Source: Sediminispirochaeta sp. (GTDB taxonomy: Bacteria; Spirochaetota; Spirochaetia; DSM-16054; Sediminispirochaetaceae). From it: DNA of 17,400 nucleotides. The position numbers and the translations under genes were made by a program. Of this stretch, positions 2,214-17,286 are shown piece after piece (position 1 is the stretch's first letter; the number at the start of each line of letters is the position of its first letter). The notes under the pieces were generated by a model, which saw nothing but the letters and a program-made list of their open reading frames with translations, made no database searches and was not told the origin of the DNA. The stretch spans positions 1 to 17,400 of the forward strand of contig DSBN01000365.1 in NCBI GenBank assembly GCA_011046055.1, in the 5' to 3' direction.

Positions 2214-2241
2214 ATTTCTGTTTTCCTCTCTCTTCCCTGCG

Positions 2242-2270
2242 ACTATACCACGGAAATATGGGCGGCTCAA
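2242..2270 (-). promoter_or_regulatory. Sigma70-type promoter for the pdxA-like gene
   Basis: Read on the minus strand, TTGAGC (2265-2270) and TATAGT (2242-2247) are separated by 17 bp. The predicted start of transcription is near 2235, about 20 bases before the ATG at 2213. Confidence 0.6.
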
Positions 2271-2412: not shown

Positions 2413-3219
2413 ATGTTCAAGAAAAAAAACAGGCTCTCAGTACAGACGGTGCTTCCGGAGAACTTTCAGCAGAATCGGCAATTTCGCCAAGAGATGGACA
2501 CGCTGCGGTCCCTGGGCTTTGACGGGGTGGAGCTCAATATCGCCCACCCCAACCGATGCAAACTCGGGCCGATACTCGCCTTTCTGGAGGAGTCCGAGTT
2601 GCAGCTGACGAACTTCGCCTCCGGTCTGACCGCAAAGACCTACGGACTCTCCCTTTCTCACCAAGACGAGGAGGAACGTCGGCGGGCGGTAGGCAAGGTT
2701 CAGGAGATCATCCGCCTCCTGGAGGGCAGCTCGATCGGGATCATCCTCGGTTTTTTCAAAGGTCCGAAAGCGGAGAACCAAGAGACCGCCAGGATCCAGT
2801 TCGCCCGTTCCTTCGAAGAACTCCTGCCCCGGGCCGAGGCGGGGAAGGTTCCGCTCATCGTGGAGGCCACCAACCGCTACGAGTCCTCCGTGGCCAACAG
2901 CCTGGAAGAGGCCTTCGAGTGTATAAAAAAACTACCCAGCCCCTACGCGAAGATCCTGCCCGATACCTTTCATATGAACATCGAAGAGTCGGATATGTAC
3001 TCCGCCCTGAGCCGGCACCTTCAGTACTTCGACACGATCCACCTCTCGGACAACAACCGGTACTTCCCCGGATTCGGGGCGCTGGACTTCGAGAGGATCA
3101 TCCGCCACCTGAGGCATGACGGTTTCGATGGCGGATTTGCCATAGAGGGACAAATCAAAAGGAGCTTCACCGACGACTGCCGCGCCGCCATCGATTTTCT
3201 CAAACCTTATCTGAGTTGA
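2413..3219 (+). CDS. iolO: 5-keto-L-gluconate epimerase-like TIM-barrel protein (IolO)
   Basis: The protein has 268 residues and belongs to the sugar phosphate isomerase/epimerase (xylose isomerase-like TIM barrel) family. Probable metal ligands are E151 (IVEATNRYE), D184 (LPDTFHMNIEE), H210 (IHLSDNNR) and E245 (AIEGQ). The motifs GLSLSH, NRYE, DTFHMNIEE and H-x-D-x-NR-x3-PG resemble Thermotoga IolO as I recall it. That enzyme epimerises 5-keto-L-gluconate to D-tagaturonate in inositol breakdown. The gene precedes iolG by 12 bases, and iolM and iolN lie downstream, which supports the assignment. I chose ATG 2413 because GGAG sits six bases upstream. A GTG at 2353 would add 20 unconserved residues. 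Another ketose epimerase of the same fold is the main alternative. Confidence 0.8.
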   Translation: MFKKKNRLSVQTVLPENFQQNRQFRQEMDTLRSLGFDGVELNIAHPNRCKLGPILAFLEESELQLTNFASGLTAKTYGLSLSHQDEEERRRAVGKVQEIIRLLEGSSIGIILGFFKGPKAENQETARIQFARSFEELLPRAEAGKVPLIVEATNRYESSVANSLEEAFECIKKLPSPYAKILPDTFHMNIEESDMYSALSRHLQYFDTIHLSDNNRYFPGFGALDFERIIRHLRHDGFDGGFAIEGQIKRSFTDDCRAAIDFLKPYLS

Positions 3220-3231
3220 AGGAGTATTATC

Positions 3232-4257
3232 ATGGAAAAAGCTTTGCAGGCGGGTATTATTGGCGCCGGACGAATCGGACGGCTGCACGCCACGCATTTG
3301 TCCAGCCGGATTCCCGGGGTCAAAGTGAAGAGCATTTCTGACATCATCCCCGAGGCGGCCCGAAGCTGCGCGCGGGAGCTCGATATCCCCCAGGCCGTCG
3401 AAGACCACCGCCAAATCATGGAGGACCGGGAGATCGATTTCGTTGTCGTCTGCTCCAGCACCGACACTCACGTTCGGATGATCAAAGAGGCCGCCGCGGC
3501 GGGCAAGCATATTTTCTGTGAAAAACCGATCGCCCTGGACCTCGCCGAAATCGATCAAGCCCTCGAGGAGGTAGCAAAGCACAAAGTGAAGCTGCAAGTC
3601 GGCTTCAACCGGCGCTTCGATTCCAACTACCGTCGATTGCGCGATCTTGTGGCCGCCGGAGAAGTGGGAGAGCCCCACATCCTGCGGATCACCAGCCGGG
3701 ATCCGGCTCCCCCGCCGATCGAGTACGTGAAGGTCTCCGGGGGTATCTTTCTGGACATGATGATTCACGACTTCGATATGGCCAGATTTCTGATAGGGGA
3801 CGAAGTGGAGGAGGTCTTCGCCAGCGGGGCGGTGAGAGTCGACCCGGCCATCGGAAAAGCCGGCGACGTGGACACTGCGGTGGTTTCCCTGAGCTTCCGC
3901 AACGGCGCCATCGGTACCATCGACAACAGCCGCCAGGCGGTCTACGGCTACGACCAGCGGGCGGAAGTCTTCGGCAGCAGAGGTATGGTCAGCAACGAAA
4001 ACAACACGCCCAACCGGGTCCGTTTGGCCAACAGGGAGAAGATATCCGAGGATCTCCCCCTGCACTTTTTCGTAGAACGCTACATCGACTCCTACATCGA
4101 AGAGATGAAGCAGTTCGTCGAAGCCCTGCGCCATGATAGCCCCGTGCTGGTAGACGGGTGGGACGGAAAATACCCGGTGGCCATGGGACTGGCCGCCCTG
4201 AAGTCCCTGCGGGAACACCGCCCGGTGAAATTGAAGGAGATCGATACTTCTTTATAA
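3232..4257 (+). CDS. iolG: Myo-inositol 2-dehydrogenase (IolG), Gfo/Idh/MocA family
   Basis: The protein has 341 residues, typical for IolG. The N-terminal Rossmann fold shows GIIGAGRIGRLH (nucleotide loop, residues 8-19). The catalytic lysine is K98 in CEKPIALD, and D175 and H179 in FLDMMIHDFDMARF match the conserved Asp/His pair of the family. The stretch around VDTAVVSLSFRNGAIGTIDNSRQAVYGYDQR is typical of inositol dehydrogenases rather than other Gfo/Idh enzymes. The enzyme oxidises myo-inositol to scyllo-inosose with NAD+ in the cytosol, the first step of inositol use. It follows iolO by 12 bases with AAGGAG seven bases before the ATG, so the two form one operon. A weak 6-bp hairpin follows the gene, but I see no clear terminator. 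Confidence 0.9.
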   Translation: MEKALQAGIIGAGRIGRLHATHLSSRIPGVKVKSISDIIPEAARSCARELDIPQAVEDHRQIMEDREIDFVVVCSSTDTHVRMIKEAAAAGKHIFCEKPIALDLAEIDQALEEVAKHKVKLQVGFNRRFDSNYRRLRDLVAAGEVGEPHILRITSRDPAPPPIEYVKVSGGIFLDMMIHDFDMARFLIGDEVEEVFASGAVRVDPAIGKAGDVDTAVVSLSFRNGAIGTIDNSRQAVYGYDQRAEVFGSRGMVSNENNTPNRVRLANREKISEDLPLHFFVERYIDSYIEEMKQFVEALRHDSPVLVDGWDGKYPVAMGLAALKSLREHRPVKLKEIDTSL

Positions 4258-4297
4258 ACCTCGACGAATCGGCGTCTTTGTCGAGCGACTTCAAAGG

Positions 4298-5069
4298 TCA
4301 TTTCATTCTTATAACAGTTCCTTTTCTCACCGCTTCGGCAGCCACAAAAGCCCACTGCACCGCTCGGTAGCCATCCTCCAAACCGACCCGGGGCGGACGG
4401 TCTTCGGCGATGCAATCAACAAAATCTTGCATCTCAGCCAGATAAGTGGGCTTCCAGTACTCATAAAACCACTGGGTATACTCCCGGTGCGCTCCGTGTT
4501 CGTCCATCCAGGTGATGCGGTCTCGATATGACTGCTCACCGACGCTGATCGCGTGAGACTATCCTTATCAAAACCGGCTTTCCGACGTAGCCCGCGTCTA
4601 TTTTTTCCTTGACCGCCATCAGCTCCCTATCGAAACGGTGATTGTAGCCCACCTGCAGCCTCATCCTCGGATTGGACTCCACCGCATCCTTGATTCGGTC
4701 GATCTCTTCGAGATTCATCCCCATGGGCTTTTCCGTGTAGACGTTCTTCACCTCCGCCTCCGCGGCGGCGCATATTATTTCACAGTGGGTCTGGGAGTTC
4801 GTGGAGACGATCAGGCCGTCCAGCTGATCGCTGCGTATCAGGTCTTGGTAGTTATCGCTGACCAGGCTGGGAGCCATCGCGTGCAGAAATTGCTCCAGCT
4901 CTTCCGGCACTACACTGCATATCGCCGCGAGTTCGGCATGAGGGATATTGAAATAGATGTTCTCCGCGTGTTTTCTTCCCAAACGACCGAGTCCTATTAT
5001 CCCAAGCTTTACTTTTTGCACCGTCCACCCCCTTTTGCTATTTTTATCACGGTCCCATAGCGCAGCCAT
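4298..5069 (-). pseudogene. Second Gfo/Idh/MocA dehydrogenase with an internal deletion
   Basis: Two pieces of one oxidoreductase are visible. The N-terminal piece (5021 or 5069 down to a TGA at 4536) has the nucleotide loop GIIGLGRLGRKHAENI and the TEKPMGMNLEEI motif, and runs to VGKPVLIRIVSRD. The C-terminal piece resumes in another frame near 4531 and ends with AEMQDFVDCIAEDRPP and RKGTVIRMK at 4298. Compared with the neighbouring IolG, roughly 100 residues after SRD are missing, including the Asp/His catalytic pair, so the product cannot be an active dehydrogenase. A GTG at 5021 preceded by GGGGGTGG fits the family N-terminus. An ATG at 5069 with GAGGAG three bases upstream is the alternative start. 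The gene is divergent from lacI and shares its operator region. Confidence 0.85.
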
Positions 5070-5078
5070 TTACTCCTC

Positions 5079-5108
5079 ATAGTAGCACGGTTTCGTAAAC
5101 GTTTACAA
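5079..5108 (-). promoter_or_regulatory. Promoter of the broken Gfo/Idh gene
   Basis: Read on the minus strand, TTGTAA (5103-5108) and TACTAT (5079-5084) are 18 bp apart. The -35 box overlaps the LacI-type operator at 5095-5106, so the bound repressor would block this promoter. Confidence 0.45.
5095..5106. promoter_or_regulatory. LacI-family operator 1
   Basis: This is a perfect 12-bp palindrome, GTAAACGTTTAC, with a central CG as expected for LacI/GalR-family sites. It lies in the divergent gap between the broken dehydrogenase and lacI, ten bases upstream of the lacI -35 box and over the -35 box of the opposite promoter. A near copy precedes iolM. Confidence 0.8.
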
Positions 5109-5116
5109 ATTTTTTC

Positions 5117-5145
5117 TTGCCTTTGCTCCAAAGCTTTGCTATGCT
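5117..5145 (+). promoter_or_regulatory. Promoter of lacI
   Basis: TTGCCT (5117-5122) and TATGCT (5140-5145) are separated by 17 bp. Transcription would begin at or next to the ATG at 5152, implying a leaderless or nearly leaderless message. Confidence 0.5.
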
Positions 5146-5151
5146 CGAAGT

Positions 5152-6210
5152 ATGAACGTGACCATCAAAGACATCGCCGAGCAGGCCCGAGTCTCCTACG
5201 CCACCGTCTCCAGAGCGCTGAACAACAAGTACGGCGTAGACCCCGAGACCCGGCGGCGAGTTCTTTCGGTGGCCAAAGAGCTGAACTACCGCCCCAACGC
5301 CATCGCCCGAGGTTTGGTCAGCAACCGGAGCTTCACCCTCGGATTGATTTTGCCGGACGTGACCAATCCCTACTTTCCCGCGGTAGCTGCGGGTATCGAG
5401 GCGGGAGCCCAGGAGAGAGGCTACAGCGTCTTTTTGTGCAACACCAACTGGGACACGCGGCGGGAGACCAACTACATCAAGCTGCTCTCGGAGCGACGGG
5501 TCGACGGCATCATCCACGCCCCGGTAGGCAACACTTTGAACGAAGAGACCGAGGGGCTTCTGCCCACCGTCTACGTCAGCAACGCACCCAAGAACGCCCG
5601 ACAGAGCTCGGTGATTATCGACAACATTCGCGGCGGCTACCTGGCCACCAAGCACCTCATCGACTGCGGCTACGAGTCCGTCGGCTTTGTCGGTGTATCG
5701 GAGCACGAGACCATGGCCAACAACGACCGGCTGGAGGGCTACAAAACGGCTTTTCGCAGGTACGGCAAGGAGATCAAACAAGACTACATCAAGTTCGGCG
5801 ACTTTCGGCAGGAGACGGGCTACAAAATTATCCAGACCATGATAGCTGACCGGAGCTATCCGCAGGCTATCTTCGCCGAAAACGATGTACTGGCCATTGG
5901 CATCCTCCACGGTATCAAGGACATGGGCCTCCGAGTCCCCGACGATATAGCCCTGATCGGATTCGACGACATCTCATTCTCCGCCTATCAGGAGATTCAG
6001 CTGAGCACCATCAGCCAACCCAAGGAGCGCATGGGCAGGCTCGCGGTTGACTTGCTGATCGACGAGATTGAGAGCGGAGACGCAAAAGCCGCTCCCCGGA
6101 GGGTGATACTGGAGCCGGAGCTGATAGTCAGAAAGAGCAGCTGCCGAAGCACTGGCTCCGACGAAGAGCTGCTCCCGCGAACCGAAGCCGGAGGTTCGGT
6201 GCCAGGCTGA
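5152..6210 (+). CDS. LacI-family transcriptional regulator of inositol genes
   Basis: The protein has 352 residues, the usual size. The N-terminal helix-turn-helix and hinge are clear: TIKDIAEQARVSYATVSRALNN (residues 4-25) and YRPNAIARGL. The periplasmic-binding-like effector domain starts at TLGLILPDVTNPYF and includes RRVDGIIHAPV, AIFAENDVLAIGIL and IALIGFDDISFSAYQ. The last 25 or so residues are an unconserved tail. It probably represses genes of this cluster and releases DNA when an inositol-derived sugar binds; the ligand is not known. A perfect palindromic site lies upstream and a near-perfect one precedes iolM, so it likely controls iolM-iolN, the divergent broken dehydrogenase and perhaps itself. 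No Shine-Dalgarno sequence precedes the ATG. Confidence 0.9.
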   Translation: MNVTIKDIAEQARVSYATVSRALNNKYGVDPETRRRVLSVAKELNYRPNAIARGLVSNRSFTLGLILPDVTNPYFPAVAAGIEAGAQERGYSVFLCNTNWDTRRETNYIKLLSERRVDGIIHAPVGNTLNEETEGLLPTVYVSNAPKNARQSSVIIDNIRGGYLATKHLIDCGYESVGFVGVSEHETMANNDRLEGYKTAFRRYGKEIKQDYIKFGDFRQETGYKIIQTMIADRSYPQAIFAENDVLAIGILHGIKDMGLRVPDDIALIGFDDISFSAYQEIQLSTISQPKERMGRLAVDLLIDEIESGDAKAAPRRVILEPELIVRKSSCRSTGSDEELLPRTEAGGSVPG

Positions 6211-6285
6211 ACGGAAAAAGGCGGAGGCGAAGAGAGTAATGAAGCGAGCCTGTTTTCCCCGCCTCGGCCTGTCGGGCTCGCCTTC

Positions 6286-6297
6286 GCAAACGTTTAC
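6286..6297. promoter_or_regulatory. LacI-family operator 2, before iolM
   Basis: GCAAACGTTTAC matches operator 1 at 11 of 12 positions and is followed by the same AAA. It lies about 90 bases before the iolM start. I could not pick out a convincing -35/-10 pair for iolM around it. A 13-bp palindrome (GCGCCC-T-GGGCGC, 6305-6317) follows eight bases later. Confidence 0.75.
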
Positions 6298-6386
6298 AAA
6301 CCATGCGCCCTGGGCGCGTGTGAATATCAAGGCGCTTCCAATACTTATTTGGAGGCCCTGAAAAAGTTATTTACAGGAGGTCCCCT

Positions 6387-7589
6387 ATGGGAGAAAAAAT
6401 GAGAGCCGTACGGCTGTACGCCGATTGGGAGCCGAAGCCGGATTTCAAACTGGGTTGGAAAGACGTGGACCGGAAGCAGACCTACTTGGGCAGCAAGGTC
6501 TGGAGAAATCCCCGCTTGGTGATCGAAGAGGTGGACGTACCCCGCCCCGGCCCCGGAGAAGTGCTGATCGAAGTCAAGCAGGTGGGCATCTGCGGCAGCG
6601 ACGTGCACATGGCCCAGGCCGACGAAGAGGGCTACATCTGGTACCCGGGACTGACCGGCTTCCCCGCAACCCTGGGCCACGAGTTTTCCGGAATAGTCCG
6701 GGAGGCCGGACCGGGAGCCTTCGACAAGACCACGAACCAAGCCTTCAAAGGGGGAGAGTGGGTCTGCGCTGAAGAGATGCTTTGGTGCGGCGCGTGCAAA
6801 CCCTGCGCCGACGGCTACCCCAACCACTGCGAAAGGCTGGACGAGATCGGTTTCAACGTCAACGGCGCCTTCACCAAGTACATAGTAGTTCCGGCGAAAG
6901 TAGTCTAGAGCCTCAACCCGCTGAGAGACAAGTACAGCGATGAGGATGTCTTTCGCCTGGGCAGCATGGTCGAGCCGACCAGCGTCGCCTACAACGCCGT
7001 CATCGAACGGGGCGGTGGGATACGTCCGGGGGACAACGTCGTGATCTGCGGCAGCGGTCCCATAGGCATGGCAGCCATCGCCATCCTCAAAAGAGCCGGG
7101 GCGGCCAAGGTCATCCTCTCCGAACCTGAAGCGGGCCGGGCCGAGCTGGGCCGGAAGATGGGAGCCGACCACATCGTCAATCCGATCAAAGAAAACTTCG
7201 CCGAAAAGGTTTTGGATATCACCGGCGGTATGGGGGCGTCCCTCTTTCTCGAAGCCACCGGACTGCCGACCCAGGTCTATCCCGGTATCGAACAGGTGAT
7301 CTGGGAGGGTCGAACCCTGAACAGCACGGTGGTGGTGGTCGCCAGAGCCGACGCGAAGATGCCGGTCACCGGAGAGGTGCTCCAGGTCCGCCGGGCGCGA
7401 ATCGTAGGCTCCCAGGGTCACTCGGGGCACGGGACCTTCCCCCGGGTCATCGAAGCGATGGCCAGCGGGATGAATATGCTGCCGATGATGACCAAAGAGA
7501 TCAGCCTGAACGAGGTACCCGACAACATCGTCGCCCTCAGAACCGACCGCAAAGAGACCAAGATCAGCTGCAAAAACCCCGGTGCCTGA
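6387..7589 (+). pseudogene. iolM: scyllo-Inosose 3-dehydrogenase (IolM), interrupted by an in-frame TAG
   Basis: This zinc-dependent medium-chain dehydrogenase spans 400 codons but carries a TAG at 6906-6908 (codon 174). Before it come the catalytic zinc ligands C69 (GICGSDVH), H98 and E99 (GHEFSG) and four structural zinc cysteines (C134, C137, C140, C148). After it, in the same frame, come MVEPTSVAYNAV, the NAD loop CGSGPIGMAAIAI, and ARADAKMPVTGEV with GSQGHSGHGTFPRV. The whole resembles Thermotoga IolM, which oxidises scyllo-inosose to a diketo-inositol. TAG is one base from TGG (Trp), which I recall at the matching position in homologues. No other lesion was seen, so the stop may be a recent nonsense mutation or a sequencing error. 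AGGAGGT six bases before ATG 6387 supports the start. It likely forms an operon with iolN. Confidence 0.85.
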
Positions 7590-7591
7590 GC

Positions 7592-7633
7592 AATTCTAAA
7601 TTTGGAAGTCTGATGACTTCCAAATTTAGAATT
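7592..7633. repeat. Perfect 19-bp inverted repeat (hairpin) between iolM and iolN
   Basis: Arms 7592-7610 and 7615-7633 are perfectly complementary around a TGAT loop. Beyond them the stem can extend by the flanking GC pair if one T is bulged. The arms are AT-rich, unlike the coding DNA around them, and no run of T follows. It may be an RNA-stability or partial-termination element, or a small inserted palindrome. Confidence 0.9.
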
Positions 7634-7715
7634 TGCTTCATTTGCATAGCAATAATTTGTGTTTCTAATTGCTGCCGGTGCCCAAACGCAGCAGACAAAA
7701 TACAAGGAGGAGAGT

Positions 7716-8846
7716 ATGAGTGAGAGCATGGTCAGGGGAGGTTTCAAGTTCCTCACCACGAATCACCCGATGATAGTATTCGAGGACAACGAAGTGGGGC
7801 GTTTGAAAAAAGAAGTTTTCGACGCCCCCATGGAGGAGATAGATAAAATACTCCGGGACTACGAAGTACCTTCGCCCCCGGAGATCGGCAAGGGCGGCTG
7901 CTACATCCAGACCACCCCCCGGGCAATAAATATAGAGAAACGCCGCCGCAACGATATTGTACTGGTACCCGTGGGCACCACTGAGAACCACGGCGACCAC
8001 GCCAACAGCGGGCTGGACACCTTCATGGCCAGCCAGATCTGCGAGGCCGTGCGCCGCTACACCGCCAAAAAGGGGCATGAGGTGAACCTGGCCCTGCCCC
8101 CGCTCAACTACGGCGGCCACCCCTACCACCACATGGGCATGCCGGGAACTATCATGCTGCCCCAGGAGACGGTCAGCGAGATACTGATCCACGTCATGCT
8201 CGGACTCTGGAACGACGGATACCGCAAGATAATCATAGTCAACAACCACGGTCAGCTCTGGATGCTGGAGAACGCACTGCAGGAGTTCTGCAAGCGCTAC
8301 CAGCTCCCCGGAATCTACCAAGTCTTGGACTGGCACCGTGCGGTTCGGGAGTTTTTCATCCCCGTAGAGAGGGAAGACAGTCTAGAGACCACCTTCGTTC
8401 ACGCCGATGAGAGCGAGACCGCCGTCGCCCAGCTGATGTTTCCCGATATGGTCGACATGAAGTACGTCCGTGACGCCAGCGGCGAGACCTTTCTCCCAGG
8501 AGGCCACTTCGACACCTCCGTCGACCCCTGGCGCCGGCCACACAAGTGGTCCGAAGGCCAGGGCCATTTCGCCATCGAACAACGGGCCACCCCCGAGGGA
8601 GTGGTGGGAAAACCCTCGTTAGCCACACCGGAGAAGGCCAAGCGCCCCATTGCGGCGATACTCAAGTACTTGACCCTGGTGGTGGAGCAGATCTACGAGA
8701 CCTACCCCTCGGGAAAGCTTCCTCCCATCGAGAAGCTGAGCCTGCGGGACCCCAAGGAGCTGGAGCCCTTCCTCAAGGAACCCTTCAGCGAAGGGTGGAA
8801 GTCGGTCTACGAGCTGCCGGCGGTGGGACCCTTCACCAAAGGATAG
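7716..8846 (+). CDS. iolN: 3-Dehydro-scyllo-inosose hydrolase (IolN), creatininase family
   Basis: The protein has 376 residues, longer than ordinary creatininases (about 250-260) but in line with the IolN type. Metal-binding motifs of the creatininase fold are visible: E90, H92 and D94/D101 in GTTENHGDHANSGLD, N176-N177-H178 in IVNNHGQ, and H229 to E234 in HADESE. In the Thermotoga pathway IolN cleaves the C-C bond of the diketo-inositol made by IolM, giving 5-keto-L-gluconate. The position directly after iolM fits. AAGGAGGAG four to ten bases before ATG 7716 marks the start; an upstream in-frame start at 7659 is not needed. A strong bidirectional terminator follows. Other creatininase-family amidohydrolases are the alternative, made unlikely by context. 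Confidence 0.88.
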   Translation: MSESMVRGGFKFLTTNHPMIVFEDNEVGRLKKEVFDAPMEEIDKILRDYEVPSPPEIGKGGCYIQTTPRAINIEKRRRNDIVLVPVGTTENHGDHANSGLDTFMASQICEAVRRYTAKKGHEVNLALPPLNYGGHPYHHMGMPGTIMLPQETVSEILIHVMLGLWNDGYRKIIIVNNHGQLWMLENALQEFCKRYQLPGIYQVLDWHRAVREFFIPVEREDSLETTFVHADESETAVAQLMFPDMVDMKYVRDASGETFLPGGHFDTSVDPWRRPHKWSEGQGHFAIEQRATPEGVVGKPSLATPEKAKRPIAAILKYLTLVVEQIYETYPSGKLPPIEKLSLRDPKELEPFLKEPFSEGWKSVYELPAVGPFTKG

Positions 8847-8908
8847 AAGCGTCGGCAGCACCAAGATTCGAGCAACTCTTATTTGGTTTTGATGTAAAAA
8901 TTTTTATC

Positions 8909-8953
8909 TAAAAAAAGGAGCGAGAGGGCCGGTCTCTTTCGCTCCATTTTTTT
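8909..8953. terminator. Bidirectional rho-independent terminator between iolN and gnd
   Basis: A stem of GGAGCGA (8917-8923) and TCGCTCC (8939-8945) is flanked by seven A on the left and seven T on the right, so it can stop transcripts arriving from either side. It sits between convergent iolN and gnd. Confidence 0.85.
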
Positions 8954-9038
8954 ATTTAAGTGGTACGAAGCTTGGGCTCATACACTCTCATCGCGGAATT
9001 GGGCCCTCGACGATCTCCTTCTCCCCCGATGACTGGAC

Positions 9039-10499
9039 TTAGGCGTTGTAGGTCCCCGCGGAGACGTCCTCCATCCCCTCGCCGGTCCAGTTGGTGTGAA
9101 AAAACTCACCCCGAGGGCGGTCCACCCGCTCGTAGGTGTGGGCGCCGAAGTAGTCGCGTTGAGCCTGCAGGAGGTTCGCCGGTAGACGTTCGCTGCGGTA
9201 GGCGTCGTAGAAGCCAAGGGCCGTCGCGTGGGCCGGCAGGGGAATTCCCATTTCCACCGCCTTGGCCACTACCCGGCGCCAGGGACCCTGGGCCTCATCC
9301 ATCACCTTTTTGAAATAATCGTCCAACAGCAGGTTGCTCAGTTCCGGGTTACGCTGAAAAGCCTCTTTGATCTTTCCCAGAAAAACGCTCCTGATAATGC
9401 AACCGCCCCGCCACATCAGAGCTATACCCCCGAAGTTTAGGTTCCAGGCGTAAGCCGCCGCCGCCTGCCGCATCAGCATGAAGCCCTGAGCGTAGGAGAC
9501 CATTTTGGAAGCCAACAGCGCTTTTCGGATATCTTCGATGAAGCTCCGGCGGTCCCCTTCGAAAGAGACCTTCGGCCCCGACAGGACCTTCGACGCCGCC
9601 GTTCGCTCCTCCTTCAGAGCGGAGATGAACCGCGAGTAGACCGCCTCGGTGATGAGGGTGATCGGTACACCCATCTCCAGGGAGTCGATGGCGGTCCATT
9701 TACCGGTGCCCTTCTGCCCCGCCGTGTCTAGGATCTTCTCCACCAGGGCCGAGCCGTCCTGGTCTTTGAAGCCGAGGATCTTGGCGGTGATCTCTATCAG
9801 GTAGCTGTTCAACTCACCGCGGTTCCATTCGGCGAAAATCTCAGCCATCTCGTCGGTACTCAGCCCCAGACCGATCTTCATCAGGTGGTAGGCTTCGCCG
9901 ATGAGCTGGATGTCGCCGTACTCGATGCCGTTGTGCACCATCTTTACATAATGACCGGCACCGTTCTCCCCGACCCACTCGCAGCAGGCCTCCCCGGTCT
10001 CTGTCTTTGCCGATACCGCCTGAAAAATATCCTTCACCAGCGGCCAGGCTTTGGGACTCCCCCCGGGCATGATGGAGGGGCCGTGCCGCGCCCCCTCCTC
10101 CCCGCCGGAGACGCCGGTGCCGATGTACAGCAGTCCCTTCTCCTCCAGGTATTTGGTCCGGCGAATTGTATCGGGGAAATGCGAGTTGCCGCCGTCGATT
10201 ATCAGATCCCCCTCCTCTAGATGGGGCAGCAGCATTTCGATGAAGGTATCCACTACCTCCCCGGCCTTGACCATCAACATTATCCGCCGGGGCTTCTTGA
10301 TACTGGCGACGAAGTCCTCCAGGCTCTTGGTCCCCAGTATTCCGGACCGTCCACGGGCGGCGTTGTTCAAAAAGTCGTTGACCTTGGAGGTAGTTCGGTT
10401 GAAGACCGCCACCGAGTAGCCCTTGTCGTTCATGTTCAGTACCAGGTTTTGCCCCATAATCGCCAAGCCGATGAGTCCTAGGTCAGCTTTTTTTTCCAT
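9039..10499 (-). CDS. gnd: 6-Phosphogluconate dehydrogenase, decarboxylating
   Basis: The protein has 486 residues, slightly longer than the usual 470. The N-terminus has GLIGLAIMGQNLVLNM, and FNRTTSK follows the second strand, the Arg/Thr pattern that favours NADP+. The family signature IGTGVSGGEEGARHGPSIMPGG is intact. The catalytic lysine K186 and E193 lie in YVKMVHNGIEYGDIQLI, and the C-terminus shows the expected HTNWTGEG. It converts 6-phosphogluconate to ribulose-5-phosphate, CO2 and NADPH in the cytosol. I chose ATG 10499 over 10529 because AGGAGG sits six bases upstream. That ribosome site lies inside the last codons of the larA-like gene, whose stop is one base away, so the two are probably translationally coupled. 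This suggests gnd here serves a catabolic route for a sugar acid. Confidence 0.95.
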   Translation of the reverse strand: MEKKADLGLIGLAIMGQNLVLNMNDKGYSVAVFNRTTSKVNDFLNNAARGRSGILGTKSLEDFVASIKKPRRIMLMVKAGEVVDTFIEMLLPHLEEGDLIIDGGNSHFPDTIRRTKYLEEKGLLYIGTGVSGGEEGARHGPSIMPGGSPKAWPLVKDIFQAVSAKTETGEACCEWVGENGAGHYVKMVHNGIEYGDIQLIGEAYHLMKIGLGLSTDEMAEIFAEWNRGELNSYLIEITAKILGFKDQDGSALVEKILDTAGQKGTGKWTAIDSLEMGVPITLITEAVYSRFISALKEERTAASKVLSGPKVSFEGDRRSFIEDIRKALLASKMVSYAQGFMLMRQAAAAYAWNLNFGGIALMWRGGCIIRSVFLGKIKEAFQRNPELSNLLLDDYFKKVMDEAQGPWRRVVAKAVEMGIPLPAHATALGFYDAYRSERLPANLLQAQRDYFGAHTYERVDRPRGEFFHTNWTGEGMEDVSAGTYNA

Positions 10500-10500
10500 A

Positions 10501-11778
10501 TCATCCCTCCTCAAACTTACTTTTTTCATACCACAGGCCGAGGCCGGGGTTCTTGATAAAATAGAACTCTTCTCCGTCGGGCAGGCGGTTCCACCCCTCC
10601 CGCAGCCGCTCGGGATCGTACCTCTCCATCATCGGCCCGAGCTCGCCGTATTGGAAATTGACCCCTTGAACCTCTTCTCTGCTCAGCCCCCCGGGACAGT
10701 AGCGGATGCTGAAGCGCCCCTCCGAAGAGCCGTGGATCAGATGGGCCGCCGTCCCCAGGTTGTCCGCCAGGTCCCGGTTCTCCCGTACCGCCTGGAGCAC
10801 CCTTTCGGTACCGATATACCCGTATTTACGGATCAGTGGGTCGATGGTTCGGTTTTCTCCGAACTCCTTCACCCCTGGAGCAAGAACAATCAACTCCCCG
10901 CCGTCGGCCAAAGCCATACGGGTTCGGTAGATCGCCTTGTTGCCCAGCCAGGTACTCCTGAACTCCCTCGGGTCGAGGTAGACCACCACCCTGTCCAGAG
11001 GCTCATCCAAAGCGGTCATGTTGACCTCTTGGGCCAAGGCCGCCGCCCGGTGGTAGCACTCGAAACCGTCGCCGATGTAGAGTCCCTTGACGGATAGAGA
11101 TCCGTCGTCCTCCTGGGCTACCACCGTCAGCACGTAGAGAACTGGCAGACCCGCTCCGAAATGCTCGCTGGCGTAGTTCAGTACCGACCGAACCGGGCTG
11201 TCGATGCGGCCCATGATCCGCTCCATGTTGTAGACCGCCCCGAGGAAGTGGCTCTTGTTGATTCCTTCGGTTCCCCCGGTTCCAACGAAGATGTTTTTGT
11301 TGTGGTTGGCCATACCGATCACCTCGTGGGGCACCACCTGCCCGATGGAGAGGATCAGGTCGTAGCCGCCGTTCACCAAGCGTCCGTTGACCTGGGCGGG
11401 CCAGTCGAAGTCGAGCCGCCCCTCCGAGAGCTCGCGGATGACCGAGGAGGGGACCCTTCCCAGGGTGACCAGCTCGTTCTGCCAATCGTGGACCCGAAAG
11501 AGCTCCTGGGGCGTGTTCCCGTACATGGCAGAGATCTCTTCCGCGGTCATCGGTGTGTGGGTGCCCAGGGCCGGCAGTACATCGGTGAGCCCGGCGCCGT
11601 AGTAGCGCCACGCCCCTTCGGTGAGGATCCCGGCCCGGGAGTGGAAACGGGTGATATCCGGAGGTACGGCGATCACCCGGCGCCGCGGCCCGATACGGTC
11701 CAAGGCTTCATAGAGTCCCTCTATGAGCTCCTCGTTCGAGATATTCTCATTCACTCCGCCCCGTTGGTAGTAGAGCAT
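10501..11778 (-). CDS. LarA-like nickel-pincer racemase/epimerase, possible D-gluconate 2-epimerase
   Basis: The protein has 425 residues, as is usual for LarA (lactate racemase) homologues. PPDITRFHSRAG (39-50) matches the family's D-x-TR region, and H74 in GTHTPMT matches the first catalytic histidine. H151, K161 and H177 keep exactly the +10 and +16 spacing of H174, K184 and H200 in Lactiplantibacillus LarA. Those residues hold the nickel-pincer nucleotide cofactor, so the site looks functional. LarA homologues include lactate, malate and phenyllactate racemases and D-gluconate 2-epimerases. Coupling to gnd and proximity to D-mannonate-forming genes favour mannonate/gluconate, but this is inference. 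The cofactor genes larB, larC and larE are not in the window. AGGAGGAG lies five bases before ATG 11778. It is the second gene of a three-gene operon, 36 bases after the HAD gene. Confidence 0.8.
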   Translation of the reverse strand: MLYYQRGGVNENISNEELIEGLYEALDRIGPRRRVIAVPPDITRFHSRAGILTEGAWRYYGAGLTDVLPALGTHTPMTAEEISAMYGNTPQELFRVHDWQNELVTLGRVPSSVIRELSEGRLDFDWPAQVNGRLVNGGYDLILSIGQVVPHEVIGMANHNKNIFVGTGGTEGINKSHFLGAVYNMERIMGRIDSPVRSVLNYASEHFGAGLPVLYVLTVVAQEDDGSLSVKGLYIGDGFECYHRAAALAQEVNMTALDEPLDRVVVYLDPREFRSTWLGNKAIYRTRMALADGGELIVLAPGVKEFGENRTIDPLIRKYGYIGTERVLQAVRENRDLADNLGTAAHLIHGSSEGRFSIRYCPGGLSREEVQGVNFQYGELGPMMERYDPERLREGWNRLPDGEEFYFIKNPGLGLWYEKSKFEEG

Positions 11779-11814
11779 CGCTTCTCCTCCTTCGGCCCGA
11801 AAATCTCCAGCCCG

Positions 11815-12699
11815 TTACTTCCAGGGCGGACTCTCGGGTAGGTGTCCCTGGAAATCATCGATCAACTCCCTTTCGTAGGCTCCGGCGTAGGATCCGTCGA
11901 AAAATTTGTCCAGCGCCTCCTCGTAGAAGCGCTTCCAGGACTCCTCCTCGGCTCCGGGGTTGATGGGGTAAAACAGGGCACCGTTGGCCCGAGCGGCCTT
12001 CAGATCGCCCGGGGCGTCCCCTATCATCAGTATCTTCTCCGGATCGTACTTCCCGTCGGCGGCGTACTGGATGTGTTCCGATTTTTTACCCATCTCCTGT
12101 CCGGCGATGGCCCGAACGTACTTGGCGATGTCGTGTTCGTTCCACTCCCTCTCCAGGGCTTCGAAGGGGGTTTGGCTGACCACGATGGTGTCGGCCTTTT
12201 CGACCATTTTTTGCAGACTCTCCTCGACGTAGGGAAAAGGGGGGAGGTTGCGCACCATTTTGGCGATCACCTGATTCACCTCCAACGACCAGTGGTAGGC
12301 CCGTTCGAGGTCGGCGTCGGGCTTCTGTTTCAACTCCTGCTCCAATGCGGGAATTCCGAGCTTGCTCTCCCGCCCAACCCAGTCCCGCAGTCCTTGGAGT
12401 TCCGGAATATCCACGTGCCGCTCCCGCACTTCCCGCCGATCCCGGAGGAAGTCCAGGGCATGGAGTACCGCGAGGTAGCGGTTGCAGCCCCTCGTTTTGG
12501 AATAGAGGTTGACGAAGTCCCATACCTCACGGGCGAATTTCGAAACCGCTTGCAGATCGAAGTGATTGATAAACTGGGGGCAGAAGCACTCCTTGTGCTT
12601 GATCTCCATCGAGTCGAAGGCGCACCCGTCGGAATCAACACCGATGAAAAAATCGTGCTCCCGCGGCAAGTCTTTAAGCGTCTGGACCGGACTCTCCAT
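11815..12699 (-). CDS. HAD-superfamily hydrolase, substrate unknown
   Basis: The 294-residue protein shows all four HAD motifs: motif I with D22 and D24 in GVDSDGCAFDSM, motif II S175 in IVVSQTP, motif III around K205-K206 in MGKKSEHI, and motif IV with D228 and D232 in IGDAPGDLKAA. The roughly 150 residues between motifs I and II form a large, mostly helical cap. I do not recognise the subfamily. It is probably a cytosolic phosphatase for a small phosphorylated compound; a phosphotransfer role cannot be excluded. It is the first gene of the operon with the LarA-like enzyme and gnd, so a sugar-acid phosphate or a damaged metabolite of that route is a reasonable guess. GGAG lies six bases before ATG 12699. 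Transcription is divergent from deoR. Confidence 0.85.
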   Translation of the reverse strand: MESPVQTLKDLPREHDFFIGVDSDGCAFDSMEIKHKECFCPQFINHFDLQAVSKFAREVWDFVNLYSKTRGCNRYLAVLHALDFLRDRREVRERHVDIPELQGLRDWVGRESKLGIPALEQELKQKPDADLERAYHWSLEVNQVIAKMVRNLPPFPYVEESLQKMVEKADTIVVSQTPFEALEREWNEHDIAKYVRAIAGQEMGKKSEHIQYAADGKYDPEKILMIGDAPGDLKAARANGALFYPINPGAEEESWKRFYEEALDKFFDGSYAGAYERELIDDFQGHLPESPPWK

Positions 12700-12731
12700 A
12701 CTCCTCTCCTTTGTTTACTCAGGGAATCTTT

Positions 12732-12753
12732 CTTACGAATACTTACGAAAATC
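12732..12753. promoter_or_regulatory. Repeated CTTACGAA motif, possible DeoR operator
   Basis: CTTACGAA occurs at 12732-12739 and again at 12742-12749, a repeat of exactly ten bases (one helical turn). An inverted, one-mismatch copy of TTACGAAAAT (12744-12753) occurs at 12811-12820, inside the deoR promoter. This arrangement suits a regulator acting on both divergent promoters, most likely the adjacent DeoR protein; inferred from position only. Confidence 0.4.
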
Positions 12754-12767
12754 GTTCATCTACAAAA

Positions 12768-12796
12768 CTAATATCACGTGATGGGTGACAGGTCAA
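12768..12796 (-). promoter_or_regulatory. Promoter of the HAD-larA-gnd operon
   Basis: Read on the minus strand, TTGACC (12791-12796) and TATTAG (12768-12773) are 17 bp apart. Transcription would start near 12761, leaving a leader of about 60 bases. Confidence 0.55.
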
Positions 12797-12797
12797 G

Positions 12798-12826
12798 TTG
12801 ACAGAGGCTGATTTTCGTTATACTAT
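12798..12826 (+). promoter_or_regulatory. Promoter of the deoR-pfp-uxuB-uxaE operon
   Basis: A perfect TTGACA (12798-12803) and TACTAT (12821-12826) are separated by 17 bp. The -35 box lies one base from the -35 box of the divergent operon. The leader would be only about 15 bases, including an AAAGGA ribosome site. Confidence 0.7.
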
Positions 12827-12847
12827 GTATTTCGAAAGGAAACGTAA

Positions 12848-13611
12848 ATGGCAATCAACCGCAGACACGAGGACTCCTCAAGATACTGTCCCGCCGACGT
12901 TCGGTAAGTGTCGCGGACCTGACCGAACGGCTCGGAGTCTCCGAGGTGACCATCCGCAAAGACCTGACCGTCCTCGAAGAGATGGGCTACCTCCTACGCA
13001 CCCGCGGCGGCGCGGAGCTGGCCGAGGACAAGGACTTTCTGCGGACTCTGAAGGTCCGCCGCCGGGAGCACCTGCGGGAGAAAAAGTCGATTGCCCGCGT
13101 CGCGGCGAGTTTTGTCCGGGACGACGACACGATCTTCATCGATTCCGGCTCCACCTGCACCCTCTTCGCCGAGGAGCTCCGAGAACACAGCCTGCGGGTG
13201 GTGACCAATTCCCTGGATGTGATGAATATTTTGGGGGACACCCCGGGCATCACCCTCATTAGTCTCGGCGGCAACTACCGCAAAGAGGCGGGCTCCTTCA
13301 TCGGCCCCATGGCCGAAGAAAACCTGAAGAACTTCCAGCTGGAAACCTGCTTTCTGGGTACCACCGGCGTCTCCGCGGAGGGGATTTTTTCGTCTCAAAA
13401 CGTGATCGAGAGCCGACTCAAAGCGCAGGTGCTGGGGGTATCGAGACGTAGAGTGATTCTCGCTGACTCATCGAAGTGCGGAAGGACCGCCTTCTCGGTC
13501 TTCGCCCGCCCGGAAGACGTGGATGTACTGATCACCGACTCCGGATTCGCCGGTACGCAAGCGTTCCAATCGATGGGGATCGAAGTCCTCACCGACCTAC
13601 CTGGATCATAG
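12848..13611 (+). pseudogene. DeoR-family regulator with a frameshift near codon 8
   Basis: From ATG 12848, after AAAGGA, the frame reads MAINRRHE, the usual start of DeoR regulators, then hits a stop after 17 residues. The family continues in another frame from about 12871 with LLKILSRRRSVSVADLTERLGVSEVTIRKDL (the DeoR helix-turn-helix). It then runs intact through the DeoR sensor domain (RREHLREKKSIARVAASFV, FIDSGSTC, VVTNSLDV, GGNYRKEAGSFIGP, LGTTGVS, ILADSSKCG) to TAG 13609-13611. One missing base around 12869-12873 explains everything; an internal GTG at 12946 would delete half the DNA-binding domain. DeoR proteins usually repress sugar operons and bind a phosphorylated sugar. It heads the operon of the PFK, fructuronate reductase and UxaE genes, and is divergent from the HAD-larA-gnd operon, so it probably controlled both. 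Confidence 0.85.
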
Positions 13612-13636
13612 ATTTTTAAAAAAGAGGAGAGCGGCA

Positions 13637-14875
13637 ATGGCAGCATTGAAAGGCAAGGCGATCGTCGCCCAGAGCGGAGGACCCACGGCGGTCATCAACG
13701 CCTCGGCCTGCGGGATCATCCAAGAAGCCCATAAGCACCCCGAAATCAGCGCGGTCTACGCGGCCCACAACGGCATTCTGGGAGTACTGAACGAAGAGAT
13801 TTTCGACCTGAGCAGGGAGAACCCGCAAGATATCGAAGCTCTCAGGAGCGCCCCCGCCGCCGCCCTGGGCTCCTGCCGTTACAAGGTACGCAACGAAGAG
13901 GACTTGGAAAAGATCCTCCGGGTCTTCCAAAAGTACGATATCCGTTACTTTTTCTACATCGGCGGCAACGACTCGATGGACACCGCCGACAAGGTCAACA
14001 AGCTCGCCGCCGAGCGGGGCTAAGACTTCATCGCCCTGGGCGTCCCAAAAACCATCGACAACGACCTGGCCTACACGGACCACTGCCCCGGCTACGGCAG
14101 CGTGATCAAGTATCTGAGTACCATGGTCATGGAGGCCGGACGAGACACCGAATCCCTCTACACCAGCGACACGGTGAACGTGATCGAGGCGATGGGCCGC
14201 AACGCCGGCTGGATCGCCGCCGGGACCGCATTGGCGAGACGGGACGAGGAAGATGCCCCGCATATCATTCTGCTGCCCGAACGTCCTTTCACCAAGGAGG
14301 AGTTCAAAGATCGGGTACGATACTATCTGGACCGGATAAAACGCTGCGTCGTCGTCGTCTCGGAAGGGGTGAAAAGCCCCGACGGCCGCTACCTAGCCGA
14401 ACAGGGAGGAAAGTTCGGCACCGACGACTTCGGCCACCGTCAACTCGGGGGCGCCGCGGAGTATATCAAATCGATCATCGAACAAGAAGTACAGGTCAAA
14501 TCCCGTTTCGCCATCCCTTCGACAATCCAGCGCACGGGTGCGCATTTTGCCTCCCGGACCGACTCGGAGGAGGCGTACCTGGTCGGCCAAAGGGCGGTAC
14601 AGCTCGCACTGGAAGGGGTGAACGGCAAGATGGTGAGCCTGCAGCGAACGGAGAACGGCCCGTACCGCTGCCAAACCGGAACGGTCGACCTGGCGATGGT
14701 AGCCAACGGCGAGAAGTACTTTCCCGATGAGTGGATCTCCCCGGAGGGCTACTTTGTCACCGACGAGTTTCTCCGCTACGCCCGCCCCTTGATACAGGGG
14801 GAGGTGAAGCCGCGGATCCAGGATGGTCTGCCAAACTACGTTCGTCTAAAAAAACACTTTATCACTGCAAACTAA
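13637..14875 (+). pseudogene. pfp: 6-Phosphofructokinase, probably PPi-dependent, interrupted by an in-frame TAA
   Basis: The frame spans 412 codons with a TAA at 14021-14023 (codon 129). Before the stop come the N-terminal loop AQSGGPTAVINAS and IGGNDSMDTADKV (109-113 GGNDS). Directly after it, in the same frame, come DFIALGVPKTIDNDL, EAMGRNAGWIAAG, VVVSEGVK and the fructose-6-phosphate region. Asp in place of the second Gly of GGDGS and Lys in PKTIDND are the known marks of pyrophosphate-dependent enzymes. TAA is one base from TAC or TAT, and Tyr is common at this place (RGYDF). No other damage is visible, so the stop is either recent or an error. The enzyme phosphorylates fructose-6-phosphate with PPi in glycolysis. 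GAGGAG precedes ATG 13637. It lies 25 bases after deoR and 13 before the SDR gene. Confidence 0.85.
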
Positions 14876-14888
14876 AGGGGGTCGGAGG

Positions 14889-15743
14889 ATGGTGCCTTTG
14901 AAAATCGATCTGCATGACAAAACAGCGGTGGTCACCGGCGGGGCGGGAGTCTTGTGCAGCGCTTTCGCCAAAGCACTGGCCGAGTGCGGAGCCCGAGTGG
15001 CGGTACTCGACCTGCGCAAGGAGGCCGCCGACGAGGTGGCCGAGCAGATCAAGTCCGCCGGTGGCCGAGCCATGGGTGTGGCGGCCAACGTCCTCGAACC
15101 GGATAGCCTGAAGGAGGCGGAGGAGAGAATCCGCCGAGCTTACGGGACGGCGGAGATACTGATAAACGGCGCCGGCGGAAACAACCCCAAGGGGACCACC
15201 GACCGGGAGTACCTCTACCCCGAGGATTTAGAAAAAAAGAGCGCTCCTCTGATCACCTTTTTTGACCTCGATCCCCAGGGGGTGGAGTTCGTCTTCAACC
15301 TCAACTTTTTGGGCACCCTCCTGGCCACCCAGCGTTTCGCCAGAGGTATGGTCGAAAAGGGCGGCGGGACCATTCTCAACGTCTCTTCGATGAACGCCTT
15401 CACTCCCCTGACCAAGATCCCCGCCTACAGCGGGGCCAAGGCCGCAGTGAGCAACTTCACCCAGTGGCTGGCGGTACATTTTTCCAAGGTCGGCATACGG
15501 GTCAACGCGATCGCTCCAGGTTTCTTCCTCACCGAACAGAATCGCAGCCTCCTCAAAAACGAGGACGGCAGCTGGAACGAACGGGCTGAAAAGATCATCA
15601 AGGCCACTCCTATGGGGCGCTTCGGCGAAGCGTCGGAGCTCATCGGAACCCTGCTCTACCTCTTGGACGAGGGGGCATCGGGTTTTGTCAACGGCACGGT
15701 TATACCGGTGGACGGCGGGTTTTCCGCCTACGCGGGGGTGTGA
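14889..15743 (+). CDS. uxuB: SDR-family D-fructuronate reductase (D-mannonate oxidoreductase)
   Basis: The protein has about 284 residues, with the nucleotide loop VTGGAGVLCSAFA (residues 15-27), D41 after the second strand (favouring NADH), NGAGG (93-97), and the catalytic S166/S167, Y180 and K184 (YSGAK). A long insert around DREYLYPEDLEKKSAPLITFFDLDPQGVEFVFNLNF is typical of the short-chain mannonate oxidoreductases such as Bacillus YjmF/UxuB, as I recall them, and unusual for generic SDR enzymes. It would reduce D-fructuronate to D-mannonate. Next to the tagaturonate epimerase gene this fits well. The start is uncertain: ATG 14889 touches the GGAGG, so GTG 14892 or TTG 14898 (nine bases from it) could be used. 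Its stop is four bases before uxaE. Confidence 0.8.
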   Translation: MVPLKIDLHDKTAVVTGGAGVLCSAFAKALAECGARVAVLDLRKEAADEVAEQIKSAGGRAMGVAANVLEPDSLKEAEERIRRAYGTAEILINGAGGNNPKGTTDREYLYPEDLEKKSAPLITFFDLDPQGVEFVFNLNFLGTLLATQRFARGMVEKGGGTILNVSSMNAFTPLTKIPAYSGAKAAVSNFTQWLAVHFSKVGIRVNAIAPGFFLTEQNRSLLKNEDGSWNERAEKIIKATPMGRFGEASELIGTLLYLLDEGASGFVNGTVIPVDGGFSAYAGV

Positions 15744-15747
15744 TAAT

Positions 15748-17286
15748 ATGAAAAAAATCATTGAAATACTTCGGGAGAACAATCTCGAGGAGCTGAGTCA
15801 AACCCAGTTGGACCGACTCAAGGCCTCGGAGAGGGAGAAGATCGAAAAAGATTCGACCCGCCTCTACACCAGGTCTCTCTATACCAGAGAGGGGATTCTC
15901 TACTTCGTCGCCAAGGAGGATGGGGAGAAGAGCCTCTACCTCTGCTCGCATCGAGTCCTTCCGGAGGACTTCACCGGTCAAGTCGAACAATTCGGGGACC
16001 TCTTCCTGAAAAAGGCGCCCTTCAGTACGGACAACGCCGCGACGCTGCGGACTGTTTTTCCCTTCACCGCTCCCGTCTCTCTGCGGGAAAAAAGAACCAC
16101 CATCGGCTGCGGCGACCGCCTGGGAATAGCCTCGGCGGCCCACATTAGAGCTATTCGCAAATATCAAGCCTACCCGGTACTCGCCCAACAGTCCATTCGC
16201 GAGCTCAACTTCACCAATCGTACCTTCAAGAGAATAGTCGCCGACGCGGGTTTCCAGGTCTTTCAAGAAGGCTATGAGGATGGATGGGGAGCCGACGGGG
16301 ACCACCTCAAGAGCATCGAAGACGTGGATACGGCGCTGCAGGCGGGAATGCCGATGATTACCCTGGATCTGACCGAGACCCTTCATCCGGAGGCGGTCCG
16401 CTGGGATGAGCCAAAAATCGAGGAGGAGTTCGGCGAGCTGCCCCAGGCAGTACGAAAGCATATCGACCAGGAGTACCGCGACCTGGTCTTCGAGAATAGG
16501 GGGGTCACCGTGCGCCTGCCCCGACTGGAGGCGCGCCGCTGCGCGCTGATGTACCTGGACGCCCTCGACTTCGCCGCTCTGATGGATCGCCACATTCGAG
16601 AGCACCGGGGAGAGGCCTACGACCTGGAGATCAGTATCGACGAGACCAGCACCGCCACCCTCCCGGGGCACCACCTCTTCATCATCCGTGAGCTGCGGCG
16701 ACGGGGGGTGACGGTCAACTCACTGGCCCCGCGATTTATCGGTGAGTTCCAGAAAGGTGTCGACTACATCGGGAATTTGGAGGAGTTCGAAGGGCAGTTC
16801 GCCGTCCATTGCGCCATTGCCCAGGCTCATGGCGATTATAAAATCTCCATCCATTCGGGCAGTGACAAGTTCTCCGTCTACCCCGCTATCGGCAGATACA
16901 CTCACCACCGGCTCCACCTAAAAACCGCCGGCACCAGCTGGGTCGAGGCGATCCGTACCATAGCCCGAACAGAACCCGAGCTCTACCGTCGGATGCACAA
17001 AAAGGCCCAGGACTTCTTTCCCGAAGCCCTGAAGAGCTACCACATCAGCGCCGATATCAGCGGACTCCCCGATATCAACACGCTGCGGGATTCTCAGCTC
17101 GAAGAGTACCTGGATATCTCCGAGTCCCGGCAGATGCTCCACATATCCTACGGCGGCCTGCTGCGCGACTCGGAGATACGGGGGCCCTTTTTCAAGGCGC
17201 TCAGCGATCACGAGGAGCTCCACGAAACTATCATACGGAAACACATGGAGAAGCATCTCTCCAAATTGGGGGTGAAAAAGCGATGA
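15748..17286 (+). CDS. uxaE: Tagaturonate epimerase (UxaE)
   Basis: The protein has 512 residues. I recognise it as the UxaE family by overall resemblance: TTIGCGDRLGIASAAHIRAIRKYQ, PVLAQQSIRELNFTNRTF, GWGADGDHLKSIEDV, MPMITLDLTETLHPE, EISIDETSTATLPGHHLFI and KISIHSGSDKFSVYP. The conserved His, Asp and Glu residues in these blocks are probable metal ligands. In Thermotoga UxaE converts D-tagaturonate to D-fructuronate, linking galacturonate or inositol breakdown to mannonate. The ATG at 15748 is four bases after the fructuronate reductase stop, with GGGGGTG about eight bases upstream, so the two are coupled; an earlier in-frame start inside the previous gene is not needed. It is the last gene of its operon and converges with the next gene. 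Confidence 0.85.
   Translation: MKKIIEILRENNLEELSQTQLDRLKASEREKIEKDSTRLYTRSLYTREGILYFVAKEDGEKSLYLCSHRVLPEDFTGQVEQFGDLFLKKAPFSTDNAATLRTVFPFTAPVSLREKRTTIGCGDRLGIASAAHIRAIRKYQAYPVLAQQSIRELNFTNRTFKRIVADAGFQVFQEGYEDGWGADGDHLKSIEDVDTALQAGMPMITLDLTETLHPEAVRWDEPKIEEEFGELPQAVRKHIDQEYRDLVFENRGVTVRLPRLEARRCALMYLDALDFAALMDRHIREHRGEAYDLEISIDETSTATLPGHHLFIIRELRRRGVTVNSLAPRFIGEFQKGVDYIGNLEEFEGQFAVHCAIAQAHGDYKISIHSGSDKFSVYPAIGRYTHHRLHLKTAGTSWVEAIRTIARTEPELYRRMHKKAQDFFPEALKSYHISADISGLPDINTLRDSQLEEYLDISESRQMLHISYGGLLRDSEIRGPFFKALSDHEELHETIIRKHMEKHLSKLGVKKR

Follow-up and report, generated by a model that had tools for sequence, protein, structure and literature searches.

A LarA-type epimerase module in a Sediminispirochaeta contig may connect inositol and uronate catabolism to 6-phosphogluconate

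The window analyzed here, a stretch of 17,400 nucleotides from Sediminispirochaeta sp. (contig DSBN01000365.1), is one entire contig of a draft genome (G000; 2.29 Mb, 400 contigs, 68% complete). Two gene modules meet in it: one for the oxidation of inositol, and one in which a LarA-type racemase homolog of group 18 (LarA-18) is encoded next to gnd, the gene for 6-phosphogluconate dehydrogenase (Gnd). The reading that we lean towards, if modestly, is that inositol or uronates are converted to D-mannonate, which after C2 epimerization and phosphorylation is handed to Gnd. The unexpected result is that the genes for synthesis of the nickel-pincer cofactor (larB, larC and larE) are missing from 13 of 20 genomes that carry LarA-18.

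In the proposed route, a Thermotoga-type oxidative inositol module consisting of IolG, IolM, IolN and IolO would lead to D-tagaturonate. A second module, widespread and serving uronates, would then take over: UxaE would convert tagaturonate to fructuronate, an SDR-family enzyme would convert fructuronate to D-mannonate, LarA-18 with its nickel-pincer cofactor would invert C2 of mannonate to give gluconate, a kinase would add phosphate to yield 6-phosphogluconate, and Gnd would decarboxylate this compound to ribulose 5-phosphate. From gene content and neighborhood we infer the substrates, the order of kinase and epimerase, and the flux from inositol. If true, inositol would be fed into the pentose phosphate pathway rather than being split by 2-keto-3-deoxy-6-phosphogluconate (KDPG) aldolase.

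The window's genes bear on most of these steps (Table 1). IolG and IolN of the oxidative inositol pathway both exceed their family cut-offs, and the mannonate-forming enzymes UxaE and SDR are present together with Gnd. An original prediction, made from the DNA alone, held that every step from inositol to D-mannonate is encoded; this stands for IolG, IolN, the SDR and UxaE, while the IolO-like protein scores below its cut-off and iolM is split by a TAG codon. The IolO-like protein is 48% identical to its counterpart in the iol operon of genome G013, both halves of iolM have NF041097 as their best match (231 and 237 bits), and intact iolM genes were found in G008, G013 and G030. A single base separates the larA stop from the gnd ATG, making the two a coupled pair as originally proposed. 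Also as proposed, no mannonate dehydratase (UxuA), 2-keto-3-deoxygluconate (KDG) kinase or KDPG aldolase was found among the 17 window frames scanned against NCBIfam and Pfam, nor was a gluconokinase; no kinase gene for this route was found in the window.

The LarA-18 proteins retain what their proposed chemistry would need. Residues were mapped by alignment to GntE2 of Thermotoga maritima (4NAR) and to the account in PMC7583248 (papers are cited by PubMed Central number, from the portions available), and were counted in proteins of at least 400 amino acids, which represent 77 of the 87 loci described below, the 10 shorter ones being excluded. D41, R44, H74, H151, E152, V153, K161, H177, W277 and K281 are each present in 77 of 77; the C2-inverting and cofactor residues match those of GntE2, and the EV loop and α-11 Trp typical of groups 18–20 are present.

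Because G000 is a draft that is 68% complete, arguments from absence need relatives. We compared 87 LarA-18 loci (the window, 67 database contigs and 19 loci from class relatives; the short stretches L001–L020 were left out), whose open reading frames were clustered without labels. Many stretches end at contig ends, and in 56 of the 87 the flanks reach 2.5 kb or more in each direction; L065 and L095 come from a single genome, and L065, with contig number and coordinates identical to those in G007, appears to belong to that genome. The gnd gene occurs in 65 of the loci, always on the strand of LarA, within 500 bp in 35 and at most 3.2 kb away. Found anywhere in the stretch were SDR (53), PfkB-family kinase (33), glucuronate isomerase (31) and UxaE (30), besides LacI (25), Gfo/Idh (19), phosphofructokinase (PFK; 18) and DeoR (13); GntK and KDPG aldolase occur in four loci each and UxuB in two, while UxuA and Edd were found in none of the 87. 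Among the 56 loci with sufficient flanks, gnd is present in 50, SDR in 41 and UxaE in 28. Titles of the records include Spirochaetes, Bacteroidetes, Planctomycetes, Lentisphaerae and Kiritimatiellae. The neighborhood looks like a hexuronate module ending in 6-phosphogluconate, and it offers a concrete gene set, spread across record titles of several phyla, for a mannonate-to-6-phosphogluconate bypass, along with candidates for its kinase.

At the level of whole genomes, one fixed set of 41 was used throughout, including the three nearest kin of G000 (G001–G003); the relatives are not independent, with G002/G003 and G010/G035 resembling near copies, so statistics drawn from them are weak. Strong LarA-18 matches (E ≤ 2.2e-79) occur in 20 of the 41 genomes and weak matches alone in four more. 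UxuA exceeds its Pfam cut-off in 10; the matches are full-length in seven (G006, G008, G010, G021, G028, G033 and G035), and the shorter ones in G012, G016 and G030 (116–140 bits) were taken as other members of the superfamily. A uxuA search had been proposed with the original prediction, and it returned no match in G000 or in G001–G003. Given LarA-18 neighborhoods free of uxuA and the lack of UxuA in these four genomes, the route likely ends with mannonate being converted to 6-phosphogluconate.

Several observations nevertheless weigh against the complete route. The window alone, 1 of the 87 loci, joins iolN to LarA-18. A LacI-type palindrome has four matches over both strands of the window (0.45 expected; equaled in 1 of 200 shuffles), and none lies near larA, gnd, the PFK gene, the SDR gene, uxaE or iolO at up to three mismatches; with these sites confined to the other iol genes, each module seems to be under a regulator of its own. 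LarA-18 and UxuA do not exclude each other, as five of the 41 genomes have both. Of the alternative endings, the genome-wide search covered UxuA; KDPG aldolase was looked for in the 87 loci only, and enzymes of the altronate branch were outside its scope. Since G006 carries inositol genes and UxuA without LarA-18, inositol can end either way. Neither GntK nor an FGGY gluconokinase was found above cut-off in G000–G003 (G000 being 68% complete), and LarB, LarC and LarE were found neither in G000, with the same completeness, nor in G001 (94%). In the G000 assembly, moreover, iolM and the gene of the pyrophosphate (PPi)-type PFK contain stops and deoR a frameshift. A direct feed from inositol is a weakly supported proposal, drawn from adjacency in the window and from a borderline association across genomes.

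One could therefore suppose that the iol genes and the LarA–Gnd module are mere neighbors serving different substrates, with inositol carbon leaving elsewhere, for example through altronate. The solitary junction, the restricted palindromes and the frequency of glucuronate isomerase in LarA-18 loci, which points to uronates, all suit this explanation. UxaE, however, is required after IolO and lies within the iol clusters of G002 (L186) and G006 (L191), whereas in the window it occurs only in the LarA module; and LarA-18 is present in 6 of the 7 genomes with an IolN of the window type (E ≤ 4e-180) versus 14 of the 34 others (p = 0.045, borderline). Full-length UxuA occurs in two of those seven genomes, and shorter matches in two more. 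On this evidence we regard unrelated neighbors as an unlikely, if serious, explanation.

Because iolM, PFK and deoR are broken, the locus in G000 may be decaying or misassembled. Stop-bearing matched genes number 3 of 57 in G000 (40 stretches, window included) and 2 of 56 in G001 (41 stretches), and the three broken genes among about 15 in the window are not a significant excess (p = 0.10). Recoding of the premature stops was rejected, as window genes terminate in TAA, TAG and TGA alike. The original description of the last two operons as complete was thus too strong, given the stop in PFK, the frameshift in deoR and an overlooked HAD gene in the larA unit. The prediction that mannonate passes through 6-phosphogluconate to Gnd fares better in its conserved neighborhoods and the missing UxuA of G000–G003 than in the search for a gluconokinase and cofactor genes. 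The absence of gluconokinase from the genome had been named as counting against it, and neither of the two recognized families was found in G000, at 68% completeness; a co-regulated uxuA–kdgK–kdgA set, named alongside, was not seen, with KdgK and KdgA not searched genome-wide.

The kinase in relatives may be GntK, whose gene directly follows LarA in four loci (L030, L034, L074 and L104), or a PfkB-family protein. Among the 41 genomes GntK exceeds its cut-off in four and FGGY in none, the FGGY cut-off being met by 2 of 14 controls. A PfkB clade of 25 rows has 18 members within 300 bp of LarA on the same strand and stands apart from the four kinases whose loci carry KDPG aldolase or glucuronate isomerase on that side. 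Its closest solved structure is the KDG kinase 2afb (E 5e-33), yet because UxuA is missing around it, we read this clade beside LarA-18 as a putative gluconate or mannonate kinase. The PfkB alignment has matches near gnd or LarA in G001–G003, the proteins of G001 and G003 being rows of the alignment themselves; searches of G000 and G007 gave no match at 1e-40.

This adjacency also bears on the order of steps. A mannonate kinase might act first, producing 6-phosphomannonate, and LarA-18 may then be the missing 6-phosphomannonate 2-epimerase that yields 6-phosphogluconate. Cell extracts of Lactobacillus suebicus phosphorylate mannonate before epimerizing it (PMC6978723), the PfkB kinase adjoins LarA in 18 of 25 cases, and LarA-18 has Arg287 and Arg355 (77/77) where the alignment shows Gln and Thr in GntE2, residues that might bind phosphate. 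The nearest tested relatives, LarA groups 19 and 20, however, act on free D-mannonate (PMC7583248). Phosphorylation first is an improbable order, and we retain epimerization of free mannonate as the working one.

A further candidate for the missing kinase is the PFK homolog of the LarA operons, which could be a PPi-dependent gluconate or mannonate kinase instead of acting on fructose 6-phosphate. Only one of the 56 well-flanked loci (L066) has both a PFK and a PfkB clade I kinase, and its PFK is of housekeeping type; the remaining LarA-linked PFKs have T or P at the position of E. coli PfkA Arg162. Yet plasmid members of the family, mostly annotated as phosphofructokinase and in one case located beside fba, carry M, Q, S, H or G at this position, and the LarA-linked PFKs form no single clade, which leaves this substrate change very improbable. 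The Arg162 position was given little weight as a mark of changed substrate, since background PFKs vary there too: R or K stands at the site in 10 of 14 (13 BG rows and L066), with Q, H, P and P in the other four. Separately, the PPi-PFK homologs of L214, from a Phyllobacterium plasmid, and L212, from a Chlorohelix plasmid, lie in sugar-transport or sugar-isomerase surroundings, and perhaps not all of these homologs act on fructose 6-phosphate.

The HAD hydrolase gene is part of the larA unit. HAD genes occur in 30 of the 87 loci, each time on LarA's strand; the predicted model has a HAD subfamily-I fold (predicted local distance difference test score, pLDDT, 95), and there was no NCBIfam match. 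Among the 56 well-flanked loci (L065 dropped because it duplicates the G007 genome; L023 and L024 falling outside for short flanks), none has both HAD and PfkB clade I, 24 have HAD only, 17 PfkB only and 15 neither (p = 6e-6). The idea that HAD takes the place of the kinase was set aside, as the exclusion is not strict: L023, L024 and genome G025 hold both. The HAD family is strongly conserved, with 23 others 48–68% identical to the window protein, and is coupled to LarA.

The cofactor genes show a different pattern from LarA-18. LarE (over its cut-off) and the LarC ring occur in an identical 14 of the 41 genomes, which speaks for both searches. LarC and LarE are present in 7 of the 20 LarA-18 genomes, and LarB shows the same split, found in 7 of these 7 and in none of the other 13, such that larB, larC and larE were all missing from 13 of the 20. 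Eleven of these 13 are at least 90% complete (G001, G005, G007, G011, G013, G020, G025, G026, G028, G030 and G033), with G028 consisting of one contig. LarC/LarE are no more frequent with LarA-18 than without it (7 of 20 versus 7 of 21, p = 1). LarB was over its cut-off in 21 and partial in two of 50 genomes behind database-contig loci (50 of 67; completeness is not given for these, and one is again G007). The cofactor and catalytic residues are nonetheless intact in all 77 LarA-18 proteins counted. One explanation, which we offer tentatively and would not call probable, is that LarA-18 works in cells without the known LarB–LarE–LarC route, drawing the nickel-pincer nucleotide (NPN) or a precursor from neighbors or another biosynthesis, and so ties the breakdown of inositol and uronates to the pentose phosphate pathway. 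For well-assembled LarA-18 genomes lacking larB, larC and larE, the question becomes whether NPN is shared between microbes or made by a second synthesis. About 9% of genomes are reported to encode homologs of LarA and the synthesis enzymes, and about 15% the synthesis genes but no larA (PMC11796402); the portions available of PMC7583248, PMC11770544, PMC11796402 and PMC12611868 contained no mention of larA without synthesis genes. In G008, the cofactor genes sit not with LarA-18 but with a second LarA homolog, 44% identical, whose operon also holds larC, larE, larB and a gene for an IolO-like TIM barrel (L181, G008:C1:714500-723500).

Table 1 Features of the window, with coordinates, strand and supporting evidence.
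Feature	Position	Strand	Evidence
D-Ala-D-Ala-ligase-like ATP-grasp protein	9-770, contig edge		score far under family cut-offs
PdxA-family dehydrogenase	1200-2270	-	301 bits, cut-off 290
IolO-like sugar-acid epimerase, xylose-isomerase-like TIM barrel	2413..3219	+	NCBIfam best match IolO, 156 bits, under cut-off 300
IolG, inositol 2-dehydrogenase	3232..4257	+	TIGR04380, 469 bits, cut-off 355
Remnant of second iolG-like gene	4304..5021	-	96 internal residues gone vs intact relative
LacI-type palindrome, 5' of lacI	5092..5109
LacI-family regulator	5152..6210	+	Pfam LacI and periplasmic-binding domains
LacI-type palindrome, 5' of iolM	6283..6300
iolM, scyllo-inosose 3-dehydrogenase, broken	6387..7589	+	in-frame TAG 6906-6908
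IolN, 3-dehydro-scyllo-inosose hydrolase	7716..8846	+	NF041098, 306 bits, cut-off 245
Gnd, decarboxylating 6-phosphogluconate dehydrogenase	9039..10499	-	TIGR00873, 764 bits, cut-off 427
LarA group 18, putative nickel-dependent hexonate epimerase	10501..11778	-	NF052594, 638 bits, cut-off 500
HAD hydrolase	11815..12699	-	Pfam HAD_2; between deoR and larA, directly upstream of larA
DeoR-family regulator, frameshift near start	12848..13611	+	main frame AgaR-like match; frames read
PPi-type phosphofructokinase homolog, broken	13637..14875	+	in-frame TAA 14021-14023
SDR D-mannonate oxidoreductase	14889..15743	+	PRK08277, 430 bits, cut-off 281
UxaE, tagaturonate-fructuronate epimerase	15745..17286	+	Pfam PF16257, 566 bits

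Both parts of the broken PFK have PRK14072 as their best match, and an intact PFK is present in G007. A tblastn search with the G006 protein covered only residues 1–159 and 256–338 in the remnant iolG-like gene. No tRNA was found in the window. In 28 of the 87 loci a PdxB-like 4-phosphoerythronate dehydrogenase adjoins gnd (for example L053:12314-13435), and it perhaps removes a Gnd inhibitor. Loci L101 and L103 (G002 and G003) have a sugar ABC transporter followed by LarA-18 and gnd, together with a divergent regulator, a PfkB kinase, a zinc alcohol dehydrogenase and a Gfo/Idh gene; they are possibly a further route by which sugar acids reach this ending. Their resemblance to inositol genes was not counted as a link (IolM-like 212 of 450, IolG-like 131 of 355, far under the cut-offs), and neither was an IolO-like gene of L104, about 8 kb from LarA, as part of the LarA unit.

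The inositol genes of the window share IolG and IolN with the oxidative inositol pathway of T. maritima, and its IolM and IolO have likely counterparts in the broken iolM and the IolO-like gene, the enzyme names being those of NCBIfam. A 2013 study, to judge from its title, reportedly treats that pathway. An inositol regulon is described for T. maritima, which does not grow when inositol, gluconate or uronates are its only source of carbon (PMC3750489). The original prediction took the ending through mannonate and gluconate to be undescribed, but it was proposed in 2012 for uronate catabolism in T. maritima (Rodionova 2012, via PMC7583248 and PMC6978723), and GntE2, which acts on D-mannonate, was shown to be active in 2020 (PMC7583248). 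The ending itself is not new and is mostly published; the inositol entry is the possible novelty, and only for that part can the earlier claim hold. Literature searches found no description of an inositol-to-6-phosphogluconate route, although Rodionova 2012/2013 may state one. A hexonate substrate has been hypothesized for LarA group 18 (PMC7583248), and no group-18 assay was found among the further GntE enzymes in the available portions of PMC11770544.

The GntE2 route of T. maritima shares UxaE, mannonate formation, a LarA-family C2 epimerase, gluconokinase and Gnd with the one proposed here, but its epimerase belongs to LarA group 20 rather than 18; its locus contains a gluconokinase whereas the window has none, and in the window inositol genes adjoin the module. 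The galacturonate pathway of L. suebicus likewise leads from mannonate to 6-phosphogluconate and Gnd, bypassing mannonate dehydratase, but phosphorylation precedes epimerization and the genes were not identified (PMC6978723). Finally, the L-glucose pathway of Luteolibacter LG18 shares an IolO-like epimerase that converts 5-keto-L-gluconate to D-tagaturonate, and it continues through altronate and KDG rather than through mannonate and 6-phosphogluconate (PMC12632266).

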